In this document: positions 13,797 to 45,461 of the stretch, in pieces | How the letters are laid out: the number at the start of each line of letters is the position of its first letter | Position numbering within the stretch: the stretch's first letter is position 1 | Source of the DNA: Porticoccus sp. W117 | GTDB taxonomy: Bacteria; Pseudomonadota; Gammaproteobacteria; Pseudomonadales; Porticoccaceae | Assembly (NCBI RefSeq): GCF_030341905.1 | Contig: NZ_JATAAF010000001.1 | Location: forward strand, 186,001 to 250,000 | Length of the DNA stretch: 64,000 nucleotides | Reading direction: 5' to 3' | Position numbers and translations under genes: made by a program | Notes under the pieces: generated by a model | The model's input: the letters and a program-made list of their open reading frames with translations, nothing else | Told to the model about the DNA's origin: nothing | Database searches by the model: none

Positions 13797-15632
13797 CTAA
13801 AAGCCATACATCTGCGGCAACAACCAACTAATGGTGAGCCACAAAATCACGGTTAAAGGCACACCAACGCGCACAAAGTCCATAAAGCTGTAACTACCGG
13901 TGTTCATCACCAGCAAATTGGTCTGGTAAGCCATGGGCGTGGCGAAGCTCATGTTGGCGCCAAACAACACCGCCAGCACAAAGGCTTCCGGGGGCAGTCC
14001 CAGCTGCTGGGCAATGCTGATGGCGATGGGGGTACCAATAACTGCAGCGGCGTTGTTGGAGACCACATTGGTGAGTATCGCCATTAACAGCACCAGGCCG
14101 GCAAACAGACCGTGGATGGGTAAATAAGCGGCAACTTTGACAAACCCGGAGGCCAGCCAATCTGTTGCCCCCGTGGATATCAGGGCATTACCCAAGGCCA
14201 AGCTGGCCACCACGATCAGCACCACTTGCGCACTCAAGGCCCGCTGCACATCCCGCCAGGTCAGGCAATTGGTAAACATCATCAACAGCGCGCCACAGAC
14301 CGCACTGATGGCGATGGGCAAAATCCCCAGCGCCGCCACCACAATCACCGCAGCCATCACCCACAACGCCCGGTGGGCACGATGGGAATGGGGCAATTCG
14401 GTGGTGGCATCCAGCACCAGCAATTGGCCGCTGCGGCGGATATCTTCAATGTTCTCGCCAGGGCCTTGAATCAACAACACATCCCCCAGGCGCAATTTCA
14501 CCTTGGCAATGCCATAGGGCATTTCTTCCAGCACCCGGCCCTTGCGGTGAATGGCGATTACCGCCACCTGATAACTGTGCAAAAAGCGAATCTCGTTAAG
14601 GGTGCGGCGCACCAGTGGCGAGCCGCGATCCACCACCAGCTCCGCCATATGTTGATCCGGGGCGGTAAGGGGGTTTTCCTCATCCACCACCTTGCCCGAG
14701 GAAAACAGTTTGCCACTGAGCAGGGATTCGTACTCTTTCAGTTTGCTGGGGGTATCCCGAACCAGCAGGCGATCCCCTGCCCGCACCGTGGCATCCGGCA
14801 GCGGGAATACATAGTTCTGTTTGCTGCGGCGTATACGGGTAATCTGAATATTGCCGTCGGTTTTCTCAATAATCTCGCGCACCGTGCAATCCACACAGTG
14901 GCTGTCTTCAGGGATATAAATATGAGCCGTAAAAATGCGCGGCGAATCGTCGTCCACCAGTGCACCGCGAGTGGGCAACAGGCGCGGGGCAATCAGCCAC
15001 AGGTACAACACCCCTACCCCCATCATCACCAGGCCGGGGACAAAGAAATCGAACATGCCGATTTGCTCCAGCCCCAAATCCGCTGCCACGCTCACCACCA
15101 ACAGGTTGGTGGAGGTGCCGATGGTGGTGAGCATGCCGCCCAGAATGGTGGCAAAGCTGATGGGCATCAGGGTGCCGGATACCGACGTTTTGGTGCGACT
15201 GGCCACCGTTACCAGAATGGGTAACAGCAGCACCACAATGGGCGTGTTGTTCACAAACGCACTCAGCAGCGCTGCCACCACCAGGGCCACAAACAGCGAC
15301 AGGAACGGGCTGTAGCCCCACAACTTGGCCAATACCCGGCCTACTGGCTCCAGCGCACCGGTGCGCACAAGGCCATGGCCCACAATCATCAGCGCACAGA
15401 CCGCAATCAATGCCTGGTGGCCAAAACCGGAGAAAAAACTGGTGGGGCTAAGGGCAACGCCCTCGGCGCTGGTGTAGGGAAACAGGGTAAAGCCGATGGT
15501 AAGCAGCACCACCACAAACAAACTGGAAGTTTCCAGGGGAATACGTTCACGGGAAAACAGAAACAGCGCAAATGCGGTCAAAATCATTGACGCAATAGCG
15601 TGGCCATTCAGGGTTCCAGAAACAATTTCCAT
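13797..15632 (-). CDS. SLC13-family permease with two TrkA-C domains
   Basis: This protein of about 611 residues has two blocks of membrane helices flanking a soluble middle. The first block includes VNNTPIVVLLLPI and the second VVSNNAAAVIGTPIAI, the paired NxxP/NNAA hairpin motifs of the divalent anion:Na+ symporter superfamily. The middle carries two TrkA-C (RCK-C) type domains, ITRIRRSKQNYVFPLPDATVRAGDRLLV and VAVIAIHRKGRVLEEMPYGIAKVKLRLGDVLLI. Substrates of such proteins range from sulfate to dicarboxylates, and I cannot assign one. The start at 15632 (MEIVSGTLNGHAIAS) is chosen over an ATG 12 codons upstream, as it puts the first helix near the N-terminus; neither has a strong ribosome-binding site. 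Confidence 0.88.
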   Translation of the reverse strand: MEIVSGTLNGHAIASMILTAFALFLFSRERIPLETSSLFVVVLLTIGFTLFPYTSAEGVALSPTSFFSGFGHQALIAVCALMIVGHGLVRTGALEPVGRVLAKLWGYSPFLSLFVALVVAALLSAFVNNTPIVVLLLPILVTVASRTKTSVSGTLMPISFATILGGMLTTIGTSTNLLVVSVAADLGLEQIGMFDFFVPGLVMMGVGVLYLWLIAPRLLPTRGALVDDDSPRIFTAHIYIPEDSHCVDCTVREIIEKTDGNIQITRIRRSKQNYVFPLPDATVRAGDRLLVRDTPSKLKEYESLLSGKLFSSGKVVDEENPLTAPDQHMAELVVDRGSPLVRRTLNEIRFLHSYQVAVIAIHRKGRVLEEMPYGIAKVKLRLGDVLLIQGPGENIEDIRRSGQLLVLDATTELPHSHRAHRALWVMAAVIVVAALGILPIAISAVCGALLMMFTNCLTWRDVQRALSAQVVLIVVASLALGNALISTGATDWLASGFVKVAAYLPIHGLFAGLVLLMAILTNVVSNNAAAVIGTPIAISIAQQLGLPPEAFVLAVLFGANMSFATPMAYQTNLLVMNTGSYSFMDFVRVGVPLTVILWLTISWLLPQMYGF

Positions 15633-37914: not shown

Positions 37915-37925
37915 ATTATCAAAGC

Positions 37926-37957
37926 AAAAAAATCCCCGCGATTGCGGGGATTTTTTT
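37926..37957. terminator. Bidirectional terminator between csiV and the TlpA-like gene
   Basis: ATCCCCGC pairs with GCGGGGAT around a GATT loop, with A-run on the left and T-run on the right (37926-37957). It ends both convergent transcripts. Confidence 0.93.
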
Positions 37958-37980
37958 GAATCAGGAATAACCGTAACAAT

Positions 37981-39345
37981 TTATTTCAACAATTCTTCCA
38001 GCTTTTCGTCTAGCTTATGCCCGCGTAGATTGCGAGCAACCACCTTACCGGTTTCACCATCCACCAGATAGTTAGCGGGCACACCAGTTACTTCGTAGAG
38101 CACCGTAGGCTCACTCTCGCTGCCAAAACCGGTGTCGATCCAGGGCATTTGTTCTTCTTCTGAAGCATCGGCCCAGGCGTCCTTGTCATCGTCAATGGTG
38201 AAGGAGAAAATTTCGAACCCCTTGGCGTTGTATTCCTCATAGGCTTTTTTCATATGGGGAATTTCTGCTCGGCACGGGCCACACCATGACGCCCAGAATT
38301 CCAGCAACACATATTTGTTTTTGCCACGGACATCTTTCAGAGAAACCGTTTTTCCCGCCAGAGTTTCAGCATCGAAGTCCTTAATATCACCGCCGACTTT
38401 AGCGATGCTTTCGTTGCGATCTCGCTTGGCGTAATACGCTTCCTGTTTGGCGATATAGCCGTGTACCCATGCATCCTGAGGGGCCATTTCCCGAATTTGA
38501 TAGGCCGACTGCAACATCCAGCGCCCACCAAGCCAGGCAGTCTGGATAGCCAGTTTGCGAGCCAGCACATCCGGGTGAGTCATAGCGACTGTTTTACGGC
38601 CTTCTGTTTCCAGATTCAGCATCTTGTGTTGTGCTTCCGCTGCAGCATCAAGACGAGCGCGCTTTTGTTCTTCTGACTCACCATCTACCGAGCGATACAG
38701 GCGATTCATTTCCGCTTTAGTATCGCGATATTCCGGCGACAGTTTCCAGGAGTTGTACACCGCATCGTTATAGGTGCCGCCTGTTACAGCAAAGGTGCTG
38801 TTTTCATCAAACGACATGGTGAGGTTGCCCGGTTCCAGGATGAAACCCTGACCTTTTGTGGGTGCCAACCGCGCGCCACTTTTGGAGCGAGCGTTTAGCA
38901 CATAAAAGTACACTTGACGGACTTCATCCACTTCACCGGAAAGCGTAAAGCGGCCATCCTCCAGTTTCGCCTCAGCCACAACATTAAGGCTGTTGTACAA
39001 CGCGCTGTCGTCGGCAGGCGCAGACATCGACATTGCCGCACCCATAGCAACAGCACCTGAGCTGGCCTTGGTGGCTTTAGCCGGTTTAGCGGCTTTGGTG
39101 GCTGTTGTGGCTGCAGCCATAGAGCTCATCGTTGCTGCCTTGGCTTTTTGCTTGGGCTCATTTACCCAAATAACCAGGTCGCCACTGACGTAACGGGAAG
39201 ACAAATCGCCGGACAAGGTATAACTACCTGATTGAGATGGCGCTTCTGCCGCTGAGTTTGACGCTTGCTGGCCAGCATTTGTATCGGCATTACAACCGCC
39301 AATTAAAAATGCCAGGCTGGCGGTAAAAGCAAAAAATTTGTTCAT
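37981..39345 (-). CDS. TlpA-like thioredoxin-domain lipoprotein
   Basis: This protein of 454 residues has a lipoprotein signal (MNKFFAFTASLAFLIGGC) and a C-terminal TlpA-like thioredoxin domain with WCGPC (LEFWASWCGPCRAEIPHMKKAYEEY, about residues 345-370) and the cis-proline region VTGVPANYLVD. The middle resembles the DUF4369-like region that precedes TlpA domains in Bacteroidota proteins. An alanine/threonine/lysine low-complexity stretch covers roughly residues 70-115. GGAGGG lies just before the ATG at 39345; the frame is open 14 codons further upstream. It follows the TonB receptor gene on the same strand, suggesting a periplasmic thiol role linked to its substrate, which is inference. 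Confidence 0.88.
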   Translation of the reverse strand: MNKFFAFTASLAFLIGGCNADTNAGQQASNSAAEAPSQSGSYTLSGDLSSRYVSGDLVIWVNEPKQKAKAATMSSMAAATTATKAAKPAKATKASSGAVAMGAAMSMSAPADDSALYNSLNVVAEAKLEDGRFTLSGEVDEVRQVYFYVLNARSKSGARLAPTKGQGFILEPGNLTMSFDENSTFAVTGGTYNDAVYNSWKLSPEYRDTKAEMNRLYRSVDGESEEQKRARLDAAAEAQHKMLNLETEGRKTVAMTHPDVLARKLAIQTAWLGGRWMLQSAYQIREMAPQDAWVHGYIAKQEAYYAKRDRNESIAKVGGDIKDFDAETLAGKTVSLKDVRGKNKYVLLEFWASWCGPCRAEIPHMKKAYEEYNAKGFEIFSFTIDDDKDAWADASEEEQMPWIDTGFGSESEPTVLYEVTGVPANYLVDGETGKVVARNLRGHKLDEKLEELLK

Positions 39346-39455
39346 TAGAACCCTCCAAAAAAATATCAAAATCGCTGTGTTCGTCAAAAGTCCTTATCAA
39401 CGGACACAGTCGATAATAAAAATACACACGTCCCTGTGTGCTTATCAGTCAAGAA

Positions 39456-42400
39456 TTAAAACTCTTTTTGCAGGCGGAGATTGAATACCCGACCGCGAGC
39501 TAGTGCATTCAATACATTGGCACTTCCACGCCTTACATCTCCAGTCTCAGCCACTACCACACTGCTCTCACTGAAATCGTTGGTGAGATTTTCAACACCA
39601 AAGGTTCCTTTAACGCCGTCCATCCAAGCTGGCGCGTCAAATAAACTCCCACTGTCAAAGTCATAGCTCAAAGTAAGGTTTACGGTATCTGCAGCTTTAA
39701 ATACTTCGGTGAATAGAAGATCACCGCCTCCGCCAAAAGTCCTTCTCTTAGTAGTGCTTCTCTGATTAATGTTTAAAGAAGCAGAAAGGCCATCACCAAA
39801 CCAGCTAACCTGTGCATTACCTGAATACTTGGGAACTCCATTAAAACGCGAATCCTCACTGACTCCGACAACATCAATGAGCGTATCGGCAACATCTGGC
39901 CGAAAGGCATGTTTATTGATTTTTGATAACAACAAATCAAAACCGAAATCCCCAGCATCTGTAGACAGTAAATAATTCAAATTAAAATCATATCCAGAGC
40001 GATTAAGGCTTGCTGCATTAGTAAAACGTGTATCCAAAGTAAATGTCTGCTCACCGTCTTCATCAACACCAACGATAACATCGCTGGGAAGGTTATCGAG
40101 ACTAACAATGGCACCATTACTGTTGAGAGTTGTAATACGGTTTACATAATCTGTTTTTGAATGAGCAAGAGTTGCGGTCAAACCGGGAATAAAATCCGGT
40201 GTCAGTTCAATAGAAATATTCCTAGACCGTCCATTTTCATTTTCCAGCCTAGGGTTACCCCCCGCCAGCTGCTGATCAAAGAAAACAAAACCGAGTGAAC
40301 CATCTTCATTTTCTACAAACAAAAATGCGAATGGCCCATCAAATCGAGGATCCGTTGACCTAAAAAGCTGATTCAACTGCGGAGCAAGAAACGAAGTCTG
40401 CCAGTTGGCACGAACTCGAATCTGGTCGCTAACACCCCAAATTAAACCACTACCCCAAGTTCCATCGCCACCAGCTGCAACCGGCGTATTAAAAGCTTCA
40501 AATTCAGCTACCGCTTCAAGGTCAGCGGGATCAGGAAGTGGAACATCCAAACTACGAGTTGCATCCGGCGCGTCATAAGAGTCATAACGACCAGACAGTG
40601 TCAGGTCAAGCGATTGCATCAAAGGCAAACTATTGCTCTCGCCAATTAATGGCACAAGACTTTCAATGTAAACTGACTGGGAGTCTCGACTGATAGAGGC
40701 ATCAAAAGGATTCGCCCCAACCGCAGAAACTGTGTTTGCACTCACTAAAAATTCTGAGGCCGAATTAATTTCCCTGCTCTGCCATTGAACACCTATGGCC
40801 AAACTAACATCCCCAGCGGGTAGCGAGAATAAAGAACCATTAATATTTGCATCAACTACTGTCAATTCATTGCGAGTGTTCGAAAGCTGTTCTGGCAACA
40901 GAAAACCACTCAAACTGGCGAATGGATTAATTGGGTCAGGTTCAGCACAGTCATAAACATCTGTAGATGGTGCACCAAAAAATCCCGGTTGAGTACGATT
41001 AAATACACAATCCGCACTGGGCGCTGGCGCTCCTACAGCAACAGAAACTTCCTGAGTGCCACCATTACTGGCAAATCCATTCCTTATAGTTTCCCGATCA
41101 ACCCTCGGGCCTCTAATTCCATCGATAGTGCTACGGCCATAAGAAAAGCCTGCATCCCAGTGCCAGTCGTTACCAATATCACCGGACAATTCCAAATCAA
41201 GGTTCCAACGATCCGAATCTGCAAAATCAAAACTTCTTGGTGCATCGGATAACAGGGCTACATAATTAAATGTACGATCAAATGGATTAAATGGATTGCC
41301 ATCATCGACACGTTCAAGGATTCCCGGAACACTGCCATTGCTGGTAGTTTCACGAGTTGAGTAATCCAGTGTACCTCTGAAATGGAGACTGTCAGTCAGC
41401 TTTTGATCCAAAGCAAGATTGATGGCATAACTGTCTTCTTCTGGCAGTAGTAACGTTCCAGCATCTGCCTCCCCAGTACCTGTGACCGAATTATCTGTAG
41501 CCATTAGATTGGTGATGTCATTTATATCACTATCCTGGTTAAATCCAGTGGGCAAGGTCACTGCGTTGATAGCAGTGAAGTTAGCTTGGTCAGCGGGGTC
41601 AAGGGCATTAAATTCACTCACTGTGATATTCATGCCATTGCCGTTATACAGTAATGGGCCAGCTACCGCCTGTGGCGTAAAGCCAGGACGAGGCAAATTA
41701 AACAAATTCACGGTATTAGTTTGTGGATCAGTTAATCCAAGCCCGCTTTGGTCCGCTACCAACCCAGTATGTTGGTCATATTCAAATCCTAATTTCAGGC
41801 TCCCTCCTTCCCAGCTAATTCCACCATCGGCAAAGAATTTATATTCATTAAAACCGCCCGATCCTGGTTCGCCAAATTCGACGCCAACATTTACACCCTG
41901 GTAGTCTTTTTTGGTGATAATGTTTACCACACCACCGACTGCATCGGAGCCATAAATGGCTGAAGCACCATCCAATAGAACTTCGACTCGCTCTACCTGA
42001 GACAAAGGAACAATACCGCTAACGTCGGTAACACCGCCGAATAGACCATCGCTGCTGCGACGGCGACCATCTACCAATATCAAGGTAGAATTACTACCCA
42101 AGCCACGTAAGTTAACTGTAGAGGCTCCTGTTAAGTTCGTGGCTCCATTTAATGAACTCCCTGCGAATGCTGATGTACCTTGAAAATTCTGCGGCAACCG
42201 CCTCAAAAAACGCTCAAGAGATGTTTCACCAGATGCCTCAATATATGAGCTGTCATAGGTAAATACTTGACCAGCAATCTTTGACTTATCCGTCGCCAAA
42301 CGACTACCCGTAATAACAACCTCTTCATCCACCTCAATCTTTGTCGCATCCCGGGACTCCGAGCTCTCGGCCGCCTTGATAATCACTGTATCGTCATTGC

Positions 42401-42731
42401 GAAATTCGTAGCTCAAACCAGATTGGGAAAGCAAAGATTCCAAAGCTTTTTCGCTGCTAACCTCTCCCTGGAGAAGTGGAGAATTTAGCCCTCTGAGCAT
42501 GTCGCTGTTAACGATCACCTGCAATCCGCTCTGACTGGAAAACTGTGCCAGGGCTTCGGCCATTCCCTGTGAAGAAATTGAAAATTCGTGTACATCGTCG
42601 GCACCGGCCCATGCCATACCGGCAGTACCGGTCAGTGCGGCCATTAATGCCAGACTCTGAGTTTTTCTTTTAATTACAGATGCCAATCTTTTTTGTTTCA
42701 CACGGGTAACCGGGCGTTTGATTGCATTCAT
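39456..42731 (-). CDS. TonB-dependent receptor with N-terminal STN signalling domain
   Basis: This 1091-residue outer-membrane receptor has a long signal region, an STN domain (about 50-115, FSISSQGMAEALAQFSSQSGLQVIV), a plug domain (LRGLGSNSTLILVDGRRR and LLDGASAIYGSDAVGGVVNIITKK), and a barrel ending in RGRVFNLRLQKEF. The STN domain marks a transducer that signals to the FecR-like protein encoded upstream. The substrate is unknown; the plug resembles receptors of Cellvibrio-like bacteria for complex organic substrates. I choose the second of two close ATGs (42731), because GGAGG is eight bases before it but only two before the first (42737). The gene looks clearly more A+T-rich than its neighbours, which may mean transfer. 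Confidence 0.93.
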   Translation of the reverse strand: MNAIKRPVTRVKQKRLASVIKRKTQSLALMAALTGTAGMAWAGADDVHEFSISSQGMAEALAQFSSQSGLQVIVNSDMLRGLNSPLLQGEVSSEKALESLLSQSGLSYEFRNDDTVIIKAAESSESRDATKIEVDEEVVITGSRLATDKSKIAGQVFTYDSSYIEASGETSLERFLRRLPQNFQGTSAFAGSSLNGATNLTGASTVNLRGLGSNSTLILVDGRRRSSDGLFGGVTDVSGIVPLSQVERVEVLLDGASAIYGSDAVGGVVNIITKKDYQGVNVGVEFGEPGSGGFNEYKFFADGGISWEGGSLKLGFEYDQHTGLVADQSGLGLTDPQTNTVNLFNLPRPGFTPQAVAGPLLYNGNGMNITVSEFNALDPADQANFTAINAVTLPTGFNQDSDINDITNLMATDNSVTGTGEADAGTLLLPEEDSYAINLALDQKLTDSLHFRGTLDYSTRETTSNGSVPGILERVDDGNPFNPFDRTFNYVALLSDAPRSFDFADSDRWNLDLELSGDIGNDWHWDAGFSYGRSTIDGIRGPRVDRETIRNGFASNGGTQEVSVAVGAPAPSADCVFNRTQPGFFGAPSTDVYDCAEPDPINPFASLSGFLLPEQLSNTRNELTVVDANINGSLFSLPAGDVSLAIGVQWQSREINSASEFLVSANTVSAVGANPFDASISRDSQSVYIESLVPLIGESNSLPLMQSLDLTLSGRYDSYDAPDATRSLDVPLPDPADLEAVAEFEAFNTPVAAGGDGTWGSGLIWGVSDQIRVRANWQTSFLAPQLNQLFRSTDPRFDGPFAFLFVENEDGSLGFVFFDQQLAGGNPRLENENGRSRNISIELTPDFIPGLTATLAHSKTDYVNRITTLNSNGAIVSLDNLPSDVIVGVDEDGEQTFTLDTRFTNAASLNRSGYDFNLNYLLSTDAGDFGFDLLLSKINKHAFRPDVADTLIDVVGVSEDSRFNGVPKYSGNAQVSWFGDGLSASLNINQRSTTKRRTFGGGGDLLFTEVFKAADTVNLTLSYDFDSGSLFDAPAWMDGVKGTFGVENLTNDFSESSVVVAETGDVRRGSANVLNALARGRVFNLRLQKEF

Positions 42732-42928
42732 GGACATAACCTCCCCTAGTTAAAAAAATATTCTATTTTTGGGCAGTTTTTAACTGCTTAGTAATAGTTA
42801 CGAACGGGAGGCGTATTTTGGGAATAAAAAAGTAAAATTTTTTCAAATTTTTCGAGAACGCAAAGAACAGATAGCTATCTCAAGCTGTAAAACAGCTAAC
42901 GAGCAGTAAAAAACACAAGGAAATTCGC

Positions 42929-43960
42929 TCAGATGGGGAAGATGTAAACCGCTTCGGATTGATGAACCACTTTGACGTTAAATACTTCGGGCAAAATATT
43001 TAAAAGGTCGTCAATACTGTCGCTGCGCACTGAGCCGGTATAGCGCATGGCTTTCAGCTCTTCGGAGACCACAACAGATTTCTGCCGATAGCGATTTACC
43101 CTTTCAAACACTTCTGACAGGGGTTGATCCACAAAAATCAGCTGCCCCTGCTGCCAGGTGAGCGCCACATTCAGATCGACCTGTTTAACGTCGCCAATGG
43201 CACCTTCTCTGGAAACCGACACCGATTCCCCAGCCACTAAGCGGGGGTAGTTGCTGCCGTCGTAGTTCTGGTCTGAACTGTTCAGGCCTGCCTGAACAAT
43301 GCCTTCAGTGACAATCAGGGTAGAACGGTTTTTGAGCAACTCCACATTAAACACTGTCCCCAACGCCTGATATTGCCCTGCCCCGGCAGACACAATAAAG
43401 GGGCGTTCAGGGTCTTTGGCCACATCAAACATGGCCTCACCCCTTACCAGCGTGATGCGGCGAGACTGATCGTCATAGGCAAACTGAATCTTGGTGTTTG
43501 CACCCAAATTAACTTGCGAGCCGTCAGGGAGTTTGTAGTTGGTGTGTTCGCTGTGAGCAGTCTGCAGCGCCGAAAGGCCCGTCAAAGCCAATACAGGAAT
43601 TTCCTTTTTTACTGGCAGCAGCAAGAAAATCGACAACACCAAAACTGCTGCTGCCGCTGCACTCTGCCAAATCCAATGGGTATTTCTTTTCGGCAGTGGT
43701 ACTACATTATTCTGGACGTCCGACAACAAGTCGTCTGGCACCTGCTGGTGGCTAGACGCTTCGGCGGGCAAGTTGTCCGCCATAGACCACAGGTTGGACA
43801 TTTTTTCATAGGTGTCTCTGTGGTGCGGGCTGGCGTCAATCCAGTTGCGCCATTCCGCCAGAGTATCATCCGCCAGACTGCCCTCATTCAATACCAGCAC
43901 CCACTCGGCGGCCTCGCCTTCAATGCGATCCATTTCTTGTGTAGTCAAACGAGTGTCCAT
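42929..43960 (-). CDS. FecR-family anti-sigma regulator
   Basis: This 343-residue protein has a cytoplasmic N-terminal DUF4880-type domain (EAAEWVLVLNEGSLADDTLAEWRNWIDASPHHRDTYEKM) and one membrane helix (about 94-118, SAAAAAVLVLSIFLLLPV). A periplasmic FecR domain follows (TNYKLPDGSQVNLGANTKIQFAY...VRGEAMFDVAKDPERPFIV), then a C-terminal STN-like domain. It would pass a signal from the TonB-dependent receptor encoded downstream to the ECF sigma factor encoded divergently. The 190 bases to the receptor gene contain no other gene. Confidence 0.94.
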   Translation of the reverse strand: MDTRLTTQEMDRIEGEAAEWVLVLNEGSLADDTLAEWRNWIDASPHHRDTYEKMSNLWSMADNLPAEASSHQQVPDDLLSDVQNNVVPLPKRNTHWIWQSAAAAAVLVLSIFLLLPVKKEIPVLALTGLSALQTAHSEHTNYKLPDGSQVNLGANTKIQFAYDDQSRRITLVRGEAMFDVAKDPERPFIVSAGAGQYQALGTVFNVELLKNRSTLIVTEGIVQAGLNSSDQNYDGSNYPRLVAGESVSVSREGAIGDVKQVDLNVALTWQQGQLIFVDQPLSEVFERVNRYRQKSVVVSEELKAMRYTGSVRSDSIDDLLNILPEVFNVKVVHQSEAVYIFPI

Positions 43961-44155
43961 AAAAAACCTGTCAGGCGATCAGCCAGATACTAATTTCAGA
44001 TACGAATTGGCGCGATTATACAGAACCAGTTTATTTCTGTAGCTTACCTCTATATACGAACCAACCAACCGTTTTGGGAATAAAAAATGTAAAAATTGCT
44101 GATCAACAACAGATAAGCTACTCTTTTGAGACGTTTTCACCCCACTACCAAGCCT

Positions 44156-44734
44156 ATGAGCCCTCGCCACCCCACAGACCAGAAGGACAATGTCATCGAC
44201 ATCCTGTCATCTGGCGGTGATGGCAAAGGCGACAAAACCGCCTATTACAGCCGCCTTTACACCCAGCATCGGGTATGGATGCTGCGCCATGTAAAGAAGT
44301 TTGGCGTGTCCGAAGAGGACGCGGAAGAAATCGTTCAAGAGGCGTTTGTCCGCCTGTTGCGACTGGATGAGCCCGATACGCACAGCTATTTGCGTTCCTA
44401 TTTACAGCGCATTGCCAGCAACATCGCCATCGACCGCTACCGCCGCAACCAGCGCTCACCGGAAGTGCCTGCCAACCCCGAAGACGATAGCCATATTGGC
44501 GTCCATCAATTGTCTCCGGATCGCATCCAGCAATCCAGGGAAGTACTGGATGAACTGCAAAAGTGCCTCGGCAGCCTGTCTGACAAATGCCGGACCGCTT
44601 TTACTCTCTACAAGATCAAGGGCAAAGGCTACCCGGAAATTGCTGAAGCCATGGGAGTGTCAGAAAGCATGGTGCGCAAATACGTATTGCAAGCCCTGCG
44701 CCACTGCTACAGTGAGCTCAAACACCTGTTGTGA
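44156..44734 (+). CDS. ECF sigma factor, FecI-like
   Basis: This 192-residue sigma-70 family protein has region 2 (YYSRLYTQHRVWMLRHVKKFGVSEEDAEEIVQEAFVRLLR, followed by LRSYLQRIASNIAIDRYRRNQ) and region 4 (LGSLSDKCRTAFTLYKIKGKGYPEIAEAMGVSESMVRKYVLQAL). It is the FecI type that works with a FecR protein and a TonB transducer. The ATG at 44156 is preferred; the frame runs ten codons further upstream to a TTG. Unusually, the gene is divergent from the fecR-like gene instead of preceding it in one operon. Its stop codon lies four bases from the end of the convergent phosphopantetheinyl transferase gene. Confidence 0.93.
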   Translation: MSPRHPTDQKDNVIDILSSGGDGKGDKTAYYSRLYTQHRVWMLRHVKKFGVSEEDAEEIVQEAFVRLLRLDEPDTHSYLRSYLQRIASNIAIDRYRRNQRSPEVPANPEDDSHIGVHQLSPDRIQQSREVLDELQKCLGSLSDKCRTAFTLYKIKGKGYPEIAEAMGVSESMVRKYVLQALRHCYSELKHLL

Positions 44735-44738
44735 ACGC

Positions 44739-45435
44739 TCAATGTGGCAACATCAGTAACGTCACAAGATAACCATCCAGGGACAAATAGCGCCCGGAGA
44801 ATGTTTGCCCTTTCTGCCAGCGGCTGTTGAGCGTTTCTCTCAAGGCAATTACAAAGCCCTCTTCCGTCACTTCCAGCAATTGCGCTTTATCAAAACCAAA
44901 GTACTTGTTCACCGTGGGGTACAGGGCTTTAAACAGGCTTTCTTTGGCGGAAAACATCAGGGTAAAAAACCATGGCTTTTGCCAACAGCCGTTGTCAAAC
45001 AGCTGGCTATCCTCCGGGGTGGTAATGGTATCGTAGATGCGTTCGCAGACTTCGTCGCTCACCAGGGTTTCGCAGTCTATGCCAACACCAGCGTAATCCC
45101 GCTGCCAGCCAGCCACAGCCACGGCTTTTCCGGCGGTGTGTGAGATTGAACCAATGGTTTTTTGGGGCCAGATGGGAATGCGGTTTTCACCGCTTTGCAC
45201 ATTCAGGTTATCGCTACCCAGTGCGCTGAGGGCACGAGCGGCACAGTAGCGGCCAGCGAGGAATTCCGCCTGTCGTTTTGGCACTGCTTTGCTGACCCGT
45301 TGCGGCAGAGGAATGTTGAACTGTTGATAACAATCCGGTTGATAAGCCGCAACATCAAAACCGGTGCATTTAATCACCAGTCCTTGTTCAGCTAAAGGTG
45401 CAGCGAAGTCGTCGTTTACCAGGAAAGGGAGGGTA

Positions 45436-45461
<26 letters not shown>
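44739..45461 (-). CDS. 4'-Phosphopantetheinyl transferase, EntD/Sfp superfamily
   Basis: This 240-residue enzyme transfers phosphopantetheine from CoA to a carrier protein. Motifs are RQAEFLAGRYCAARAL, ISHTAGKAVAVAG, the metal-binding GVGIDCE, and FSAKESLFKALYP. The N-terminal extension before RQAEFLAG is of the EntD kind, which serves siderophore or other nonribosomal synthesis. No nonribosomal or polyketide synthase is visible in the window, so the partner is elsewhere, or it may be the cell's general activator. It overlaps the lipoprotein gene upstream by 26 bases. Confidence 0.92.

Follow-up and report, generated by a model that had tools for sequence, protein, structure and literature searches.

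A candidate cell-surface signalling cassette of Porticoccus with a divergent sigma factor and a thioredoxin-fold partner

A 64-kb stretch of the Porticoccus sp. W117 genome (contig NZ_JATAAF010000001.1, positions 186001 to 250000; hereafter the window) carries genes for an extracytoplasmic function (ECF) sigma factor of the FecI type, a FecR-type anti-sigma factor, a TonB-dependent receptor and a TlpA-like thioredoxin-fold protein. It is fairly likely that these four genes form a cell-surface signalling cassette whose sigma gene has been parted from the anti-sigma gene and now diverges from it, that the sigma factor drives transcription from repeated boxes, that the TlpA-like protein serves as a reductase, and that the whole was inserted from a gammaproteobacterial source. 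The novelty lies in a divergent-sigma variant of cell-surface signalling with a defined candidate regulon and a recurrent thiol partner; among the matches listed in a search of the open-access literature, no published report of this combination in Gammaproteobacteria was found, which is not proof of absence. Comparisons were made between the genome of the strain itself (G000, 3.28 Mb) and two congeners, G001 and G002.

The divergent sigma factor and a repeated box

The sigma gene (44156-44734, plus strand) encodes sigma-70 regions 2 and 4; its likelier start is the ATG at 44156, and the first possible one is a TTG at 44126. On the minus strand lie fecR (42929-43960), whose product contains DUF4880, FecR and FecR_C domains, the receptor gene (39456-42737), which encodes an STN domain (residues about 50-122), a plug and a barrel, and the TlpA-like gene (37981-39345 from its ATG; a longer open reading frame (ORF) begins at a TTG at 39387), with AhpC-TSA/thioredoxin and DUF4369 domains. 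The divergent gap (43961-44155) measures 195 nt if the sigma gene starts at 44156. The original prediction for this DNA, a TonB transducer system with a divergent sigma factor and a thioredoxin lipoprotein, is real by ORFs and domain scans; it named the TlpA-like gene and drew its interval without it. The sigma regions, the FecR domain set and the STN receptor are those of FecI/FecR/FecA systems, and the single co-directional sigma-fecR unit of the FecIRA type is absent from this locus.

The divergence is exceptional within the genus. FecR searches gave 20 matches in G000 and 43 in G001 (genomes of about 3.1-3.3 Mb) versus 6 in the 2.9-Mb G002, so FecR counts within the genus reflect strong expansion or loss. 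As ORFs, 19 loci could be mapped in G000 and 42 in G001, one FecR match per genome not being recovered by the profile and therefore omitted. A sigma gene stands directly before fecR, in the same direction, at 16 of 19 and 40 of 42 of these loci according to the ORF maps, and tblastn added three pairs that had been masked by a longer antisense ORF (two in G000, one in G001), raising the counts to 18/19 and 41/42. The sigma-fecR gap in the 56 co-directional pairs measured has a median of -4 nt and is at most 5 nt in 52 of them. Because the only exceptions are the window locus and its ortholog in G001, the split of sigma and fecR is real, is kept in both genomes and is lineage-specific, which upholds the earlier remark that the sigma gene points away from fecR, against the usual order. 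Divergent sigma/fecR pairs are also present in some Bacteroidota loci (L099, L100, L128 and L134), so that other bacteria have this arrangement too. A co-directional unit is what such systems usually show and is not strictly required of them, and the locus is a variant of a wider kind, not a copy of FecIRA.

A search with TTCCCAAAA-N(7-13)-GTTCGTA revealed two matches in the window, whereas 100 shuffled versions gave none; these two, both in the cassette, were also the only matches in the whole of G000, where a reversed-pattern control gave 0. One copy (42799-42824, minus strand; TTCCCAAAA-N11-TTCGTA) lies 61 nt upstream of the receptor start, and the other (44055-44080, minus strand), within the divergent gap, lies 94 nt upstream of the fecR start. 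The slightly relaxed form TTCCCAAAA-N11-TTCGT[A/T] has five exact matches in G001, before fecR, the ortholog of the receptor (which lacks an STN domain), a PF04820 tryptophan-halogenase-like flavoprotein gene, a second TlpA gene and an unlinked thioredoxin gene. All seven sites have equal spacing and a single orientation, with the start codon 30-108 nt downstream, where for fecR, the second TlpA and the thioredoxin of G001 a later in-frame start was chosen over that of the longest ORF (the longest thioredoxin ORF would include the box itself). From this layout we infer that the box is a promoter recognised by the divergent sigma factor, and a seven-site promoter rule of this kind would tie one ECF sigma factor to a small candidate regulon with rewired feedback, the anti-sigma factor being induced and the sigma factor not.

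The same features, nine invariant bases, a fixed 11-nt spacing and TTCGT, would suit a repressor or activator site too, and the box might then serve as the operator to which a classical DNA-binding regulator attaches, and not as a promoter for the sigma factor. We regard this as unlikely. The seven copies share their orientation and their distance before a start codon, the box is not palindromic, and the domain scan of the four cassette proteins found no other DNA-binding regulator among them. An order-wide scan of 390 genomes found the exact box in six: two copies in G000, five in G001 and one in each of four others. As the reversed pattern yielded nine scattered single matches in the same 390 genomes, a lone match per genome is at chance level. 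The two genomes with more than one copy are also those with the closest sigma genes; sigma relatives at an E-value of 1e-25 or better occur in three of 144 genomes searched, the strain's own included, and the third is 38% identical.

Among the boxed genes of G001, the thioredoxin gene encodes a protein with a signal-like start and has 16 homologs in that genome, itself included (E 1e-5 or better). Fourteen of the 16 lie within 10 kb of a fecR match, versus 23% expected for random positions, and the boxed gene is the only one without a fecR within 16 kb. G001 also has a paralogous system with a receptor that forms the sister branch to the window receptor and its ortholog; in it, such a thioredoxin gene follows the receptor and TlpA genes on the same strand. 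G000 has two weaker homologs of the boxed thioredoxin. The flavoprotein gene of the Trp_halogenase family (L007 15965-17479 in G001, minus strand) has its box 30 nt before the start. The same family has two partial matches in G000 (E about 1e-12, over the Pfam cut-off), both in a single 433-codon frame, and a search of G002 with the family gave no match.

Regarding the direction of control, no box faces the sigma gene in the window, even with three mismatches allowed. The expectation that the sigma factor may drive both directions from the gap is therefore not supported, since the sole repeated promoter-like box faces fecR and the receptor gene and never the sigma gene; of the motifs proposed for both directions, those toward fecR and the receptor were found. 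A sigma-70-like TTGCTG-17-TACTCT seen by eye at 44096-44124 was not among the promoter-scan matches and is not claimed. Judged by the placement of the boxes, the sigma factor probably drives its anti-sigma factor and receptor but not itself, a logic like that of HasI/HasS. According to a review, the sigma factors of iron-uptake systems do not switch on the genes for themselves or for their anti-sigma factors; HasI is the exception, as it drives hasS together with hasR, though not hasI (PMC9249621). The Has system of Serratia (HasI/HasS/HasR) resembles the window in having a shared sequence before the anti-sigma and receptor genes, and resembles its predicted logic in that the anti-sigma gene belongs to the sigma regulon and the sigma factor is not self-activated (PMC9249621). 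It differs in that the window sigma gene is divergent, the unit includes a TlpA enzyme and the regulation is predicted from the box layout; no haemophore or exporter is found among the four cassette proteins, no genome search having been made for them. In the ferric citrate system, fecI and fecR are reported to be on a single mRNA that is not autoregulated (PMC9249621), whereas the window fecR has its own box and the sigma gene is divergent.

As the receptor has an STN domain and FecR has FecR_C, a path from receptor through FecR to sigma factor can close inside the cassette. The STN domain of the ligand-bound receptor would act on FecR and free the sigma factor, which would then transcribe fecR and receptor-tlpA and leave its own gene aside. 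New anti-sigma factor would build up against a fixed amount of sigma factor, so that the response might be damped and, in a Has-like manner, shut off fast once the ligand is gone. In Pseudomonas systems, the anti-sigma factor is reported to be bound by the signalling domain and kept safe in this way until a signal arrives (PMC11637429).

Several observations weigh against this reading. The cassette is known from two genomes only, its footprint is seven sites, and a different regulator could be the one that binds the box. If one mismatch is permitted, the count stays at two in G000 and rises by one in G001, and two sites appear in G002, a genome with no sigma ortholog; these extras are not counted in the regulon. 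The reversed-pattern control at one mismatch gives one site in G000 and one in G103. Because the receptor ortholog of G001 lacks an STN domain, signalling in that genome must come from a different receptor, to which sensing may have shifted, and the STN receptor adjoining the ortholog has no exact box on its side. The TlpA-like gene has no box of its own and lies behind a hairpin, and its co-regulation with the receptor is assumed. This hairpin, followed by a T run (39424-39441, minus strand; z -2.4), is a candidate weak terminator or attenuator, and G001 has a stronger one in the same interval with a different sequence (L007 about 14370-14400; z -5.5). A terminator scan of the window region gave 7 candidates versus 7.2 in shuffles, which is no excess; it is possible that both hairpins are attenuators that lower tlpA relative to the receptor gene. 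A hairpin after the gene is also described for fecA (PMC9249621). The additional one-mismatch box of G001 (L057 4551-4576, plus strand) stands about 170 nt before a 202-codon ORF.

The thioredoxin-fold partner and its possible substrate

The TlpA-like protein consists of a DUF4369 domain, a helical middle and a ResA-like thioredoxin domain with a CGPC motif; WC, PC and P423 are invariant in both alignments, in agreement with a TlpA/ResA assignment. Its best solved structural relatives are Bacteroides domains and ResA. A lipobox-like IGG-C followed by N was read by eye as a lipoprotein with outer-membrane sorting; on the other side of the balance, no convincing lipobox could be made out, also by eye, in the G001 ortholog, where residue 11 is the sole early cysteine. 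Such partners are frequent in the genus. A thioredoxin-fold gene directly follows the receptor gene on the same strand at 21 of 42 FecR loci in G001 and 8 of 19 in G000, and lies within the next three genes at 23 and 9, respectively; genes were assigned to this class with a profile made from TlpA and thioredoxin sequences, which does not imply export for each gene. The TlpA-like thioredoxin-fold partner proposed earlier is confirmed in G000, where it looks like a lipoprotein, and this frequency weakens the hint of Bacteroidota that had been drawn from it. No published functional test of the receptor/thioredoxin-fold partnership was found among the matches listed in the open-access literature.

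Outside the genus, the closest receptors and TlpA proteins belong to gammaproteobacterial metagenome-bin loci in which receptor and TlpA genes, sometimes with DsbD, stand together. Of 79 related loci, 24 were examined (L067-L091 without L088; 23 from gammaproteobacterial or unclassified bins and one labelled Planctomycetota). Unlike the window, these 24 loci gave no detectable sigma factor or FecR (blastp, E 1e-6, within the locus stretch), and the 18 gammaproteobacterial receptors closest in the tree described below have no STN domain by profile, with which Pfam agrees in the four scanned. A bin outside those 24, L093, has a co-directional sigma-FecR-receptor-TlpA-TlpA row. Eleven of the 24 loci have a DsbD homolog close to TlpA, the four DsbD loci scanned each contain DsbD_N, DsbD_TM and a thioredoxin domain, and in G001 two further FecR-receptor loci likewise encode DsbD_N domains. 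Because of the CGPC motif and these DsbD neighbours, the chemistry of the TlpA-like protein is probably reductive. Four of the metagenome-bin loci (L067, L068, L073 and L076) have in common a large protein beside the receptor or TlpA, presumably of the FG-GAP/ASPIC-UnbV kind.

What the enzyme acts on can be narrowed by counting cysteines. FecR contains none in either G000 or G001, which rules out a FecR disulfide as a redox gate. The receptor contains only C577 and C597, both in a long barrel loop (residues 544-616) between strands with short turns, in a structural model with a mean predicted local distance difference test (pLDDT) score of 69, lower in the loop. Long barrel loops opposite short turns mark the extracellular side, and the two cysteines are accordingly predicted by the model to be extracellular. 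Several receptors with a thioredoxin-fold partner have no cysteine at all (G001_L065, G001_L058_15458, G000_L061 and G000_L064). Because FecR is cysteine-free, the receptor cysteines would be extracellular and several partnered receptors lack cysteines, cargo appears to be the likeliest substrate, rather than FecR or the folded receptor. The TlpA-like protein may thus be a periplasmic thiol-disulfide reductase for imported cargo, or for a disulfide or metal-thiolate derived from it, a weaker proposal than that for the box; a cargo disulfide is a conjecture, which counts against it. Of the earlier suggestion that the thiol domain serves a cargo or receptor in need of disulfide chemistry, the cargo is favoured and the receptor less so.

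The receptor could nevertheless be the client if the TlpA-like protein formed or isomerised the outer-loop disulfide C577-C597 before insertion, as a step in receptor biogenesis. These are the receptor's only cysteines, the G001 ortholog has two at the matching place, and C577 is nearly invariant (90% or more) in a 20-sequence alignment. We nonetheless consider this rather improbable, as thioredoxin-fold partners also stand beside the four cysteine-free receptors, and a CGPC enzyme in the company of DsbD is more likely to reduce than to oxidise. Another proposal is that the module handles a metal such as copper, the receptor importing a complex and the TlpA-like protein reducing the metal site or carrying the metal via a methionine-rich insert. 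Methionine-containing inserts (MSMS) are found in TlpA of both genomes, and a Stenotrophomonas pair of receptor and periplasmic thioredoxin is reported to be controlled by MntR and induced by manganese and iron limitation (PMC13217887). The insert, however, is disordered in the model (77-108) and absent at that place in the second TlpA of G001, the receptor has no plug cysteine, and the four cassette genes include no metal transporter; we give a metal-handling role little weight. That Stenotrophomonas TBDR-pTFP pair resembles the window in that a TonB receptor gene is followed by a periplasmic thioredoxin-fold gene. It has a CQNC plug motif and a CAPC active site, whereas the window proteins have no plug cysteine and CGPC, and the accessible part of its description names no STN, FecR or sigma factor (PMC13217887).

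To return to reductive processing of cargo, the recurrence of thioredoxin-fold partners beside FecR-linked receptors points to a reducible cargo. Tentatively, the genus might run an expanded set of sigma-FecR-receptor importers in which a dedicated exported thioredoxin-fold enzyme is standard and cargo, such as disulfide-bonded peptides or thiol-bound metal complexes, is reduced in the periplasm; the window sigma factor, split off, would command its anti-sigma factor and the receptor, and its counterpart in the congener would control thiol enzymes in trans as well. Near other FecR-linked receptors, proteins of about 500 residues with a signal-like start and an 'ILYVG' segment were grouped by eye (L167 7155-8681 and L169 5576-7078); a Pfam scan of the L167 protein gave no match. 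Small proteins are encoded beside similar 'ILYVG' genes, and one of them (L186 13192-13710) is a DsbD_N domain.

Composition and origin of the cassette

The receptor gene is, as had been noted, more A+T-rich than its neighbours. Its GC content is 0.454 and its GC content at third codon positions (GC3) 0.370, versus a GC3 of 0.612 (standard deviation 0.074) in 178 other sampled ORFs, two of which fall below it (0.333 and 0.368); it is also the lowest of 15 sampled receptor ORFs (mean 0.533, standard deviation 0.064). GC3 declines in the same ranking in both genomes, from the sigma gene through fecR and TlpA to the receptor (0.653, 0.598, 0.524 and 0.370 in G000; 0.596, 0.507, 0.464 and 0.424 in G001). 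In both genomes the sampled receptors lie below other genes in GC3, and so does the G001 ortholog, so that the receptor's low GC is in part typical of its class. Low GC3 as a mark of high expression was rejected, as recognisable ribosomal ORFs have values of about 0.54-0.64.

The original prediction had hinted at an origin in Bacteroidota, which the trees do not support. In a TlpA tree (105 rows, quick method), the window protein and its G001 ortholog fall inside a 22-row set containing 18 Pseudomonadota, one long-branch Bacteroidota and one Planctomycetota bin. In a receptor tree (51 rows, quick method), the two receptors are joined next by 18 gammaproteobacterial ones, with four Bacteroidota rows apart. 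Direct acquisition from Bacteroidota would accord with the low receptor GC3 and with the DUF4369-TlpA proteins and divergent sigma/fecR pairs of L099, L100, L128 and L134. It is nonetheless highly improbable, since both trees place the proteins among gammaproteobacterial sequences (though with only four Bacteroidota receptor rows and a quick method), no SusD domain is found in the four cassette proteins, and the GC3 of fecR and the sigma gene is ordinary. The TlpA-like protein shares its domain order and thioredoxin fold with Bacteroidota TlpA/ResA-like DUF4369 proteins and differs from them in its clade and in having no SusD partner among the cassette proteins; the receptor's neighbours are FecR and TlpA, unlike a SusC/SusD pair.

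Acquisition as such fared better. In G002, the closest relative (Mfd 95% identical), and in G001 (84%), the genes that flank the cassette stand together without it; Mfd, CsiV, KBL and similar labels are names that we assume for these genes. The G001 cassette lies some 430 kb from that site, which has no PPTase gene (4'-phosphopantetheinyl transferase) in G001. These cassette-free sites support the insertion part of the earlier claim, and the gene order makes it likely that this lineage gained the cassette by insertion at the present site, with the CsiV-like gene on one side and the PPTase gene on the other; the source was most likely another member of the Gammaproteobacteria. Against a simple insertion stands the finding that each congener has a different small ORF (135 and 159 codons) at the site, which is not a clean pre-insertion state; loss from G002 combined with relocation is a possible alternative. 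Identities between G000 and G001 (sigma 63%, FecR 41%, receptor 51%, TlpA 62.5%) compare with 45-90% for five neighbours, so that divergence alone cannot decide between transfer and relocation. The two end regions contain no direct repeats and share no word of 8 or more bases, the domain scan found no integrase among the four cassette proteins, and a scan of genome contigs with the receptor alone found no relative.

Cassette ends and neighbouring genes

The sigma gene ends 4 nt from a convergent PPTase gene (44739-45461, minus strand), which is present at E 1e-8 in five of 61 family genomes, including those of the strain and G002 and not G001. At the other end, a perfect inverted repeat of 15 bp, flanked on either side by A/T runs (37925-37958), lies between the cassette and the convergent CsiV-like gene, and is likely to be a bidirectional terminator that closes the cassette against that gene.

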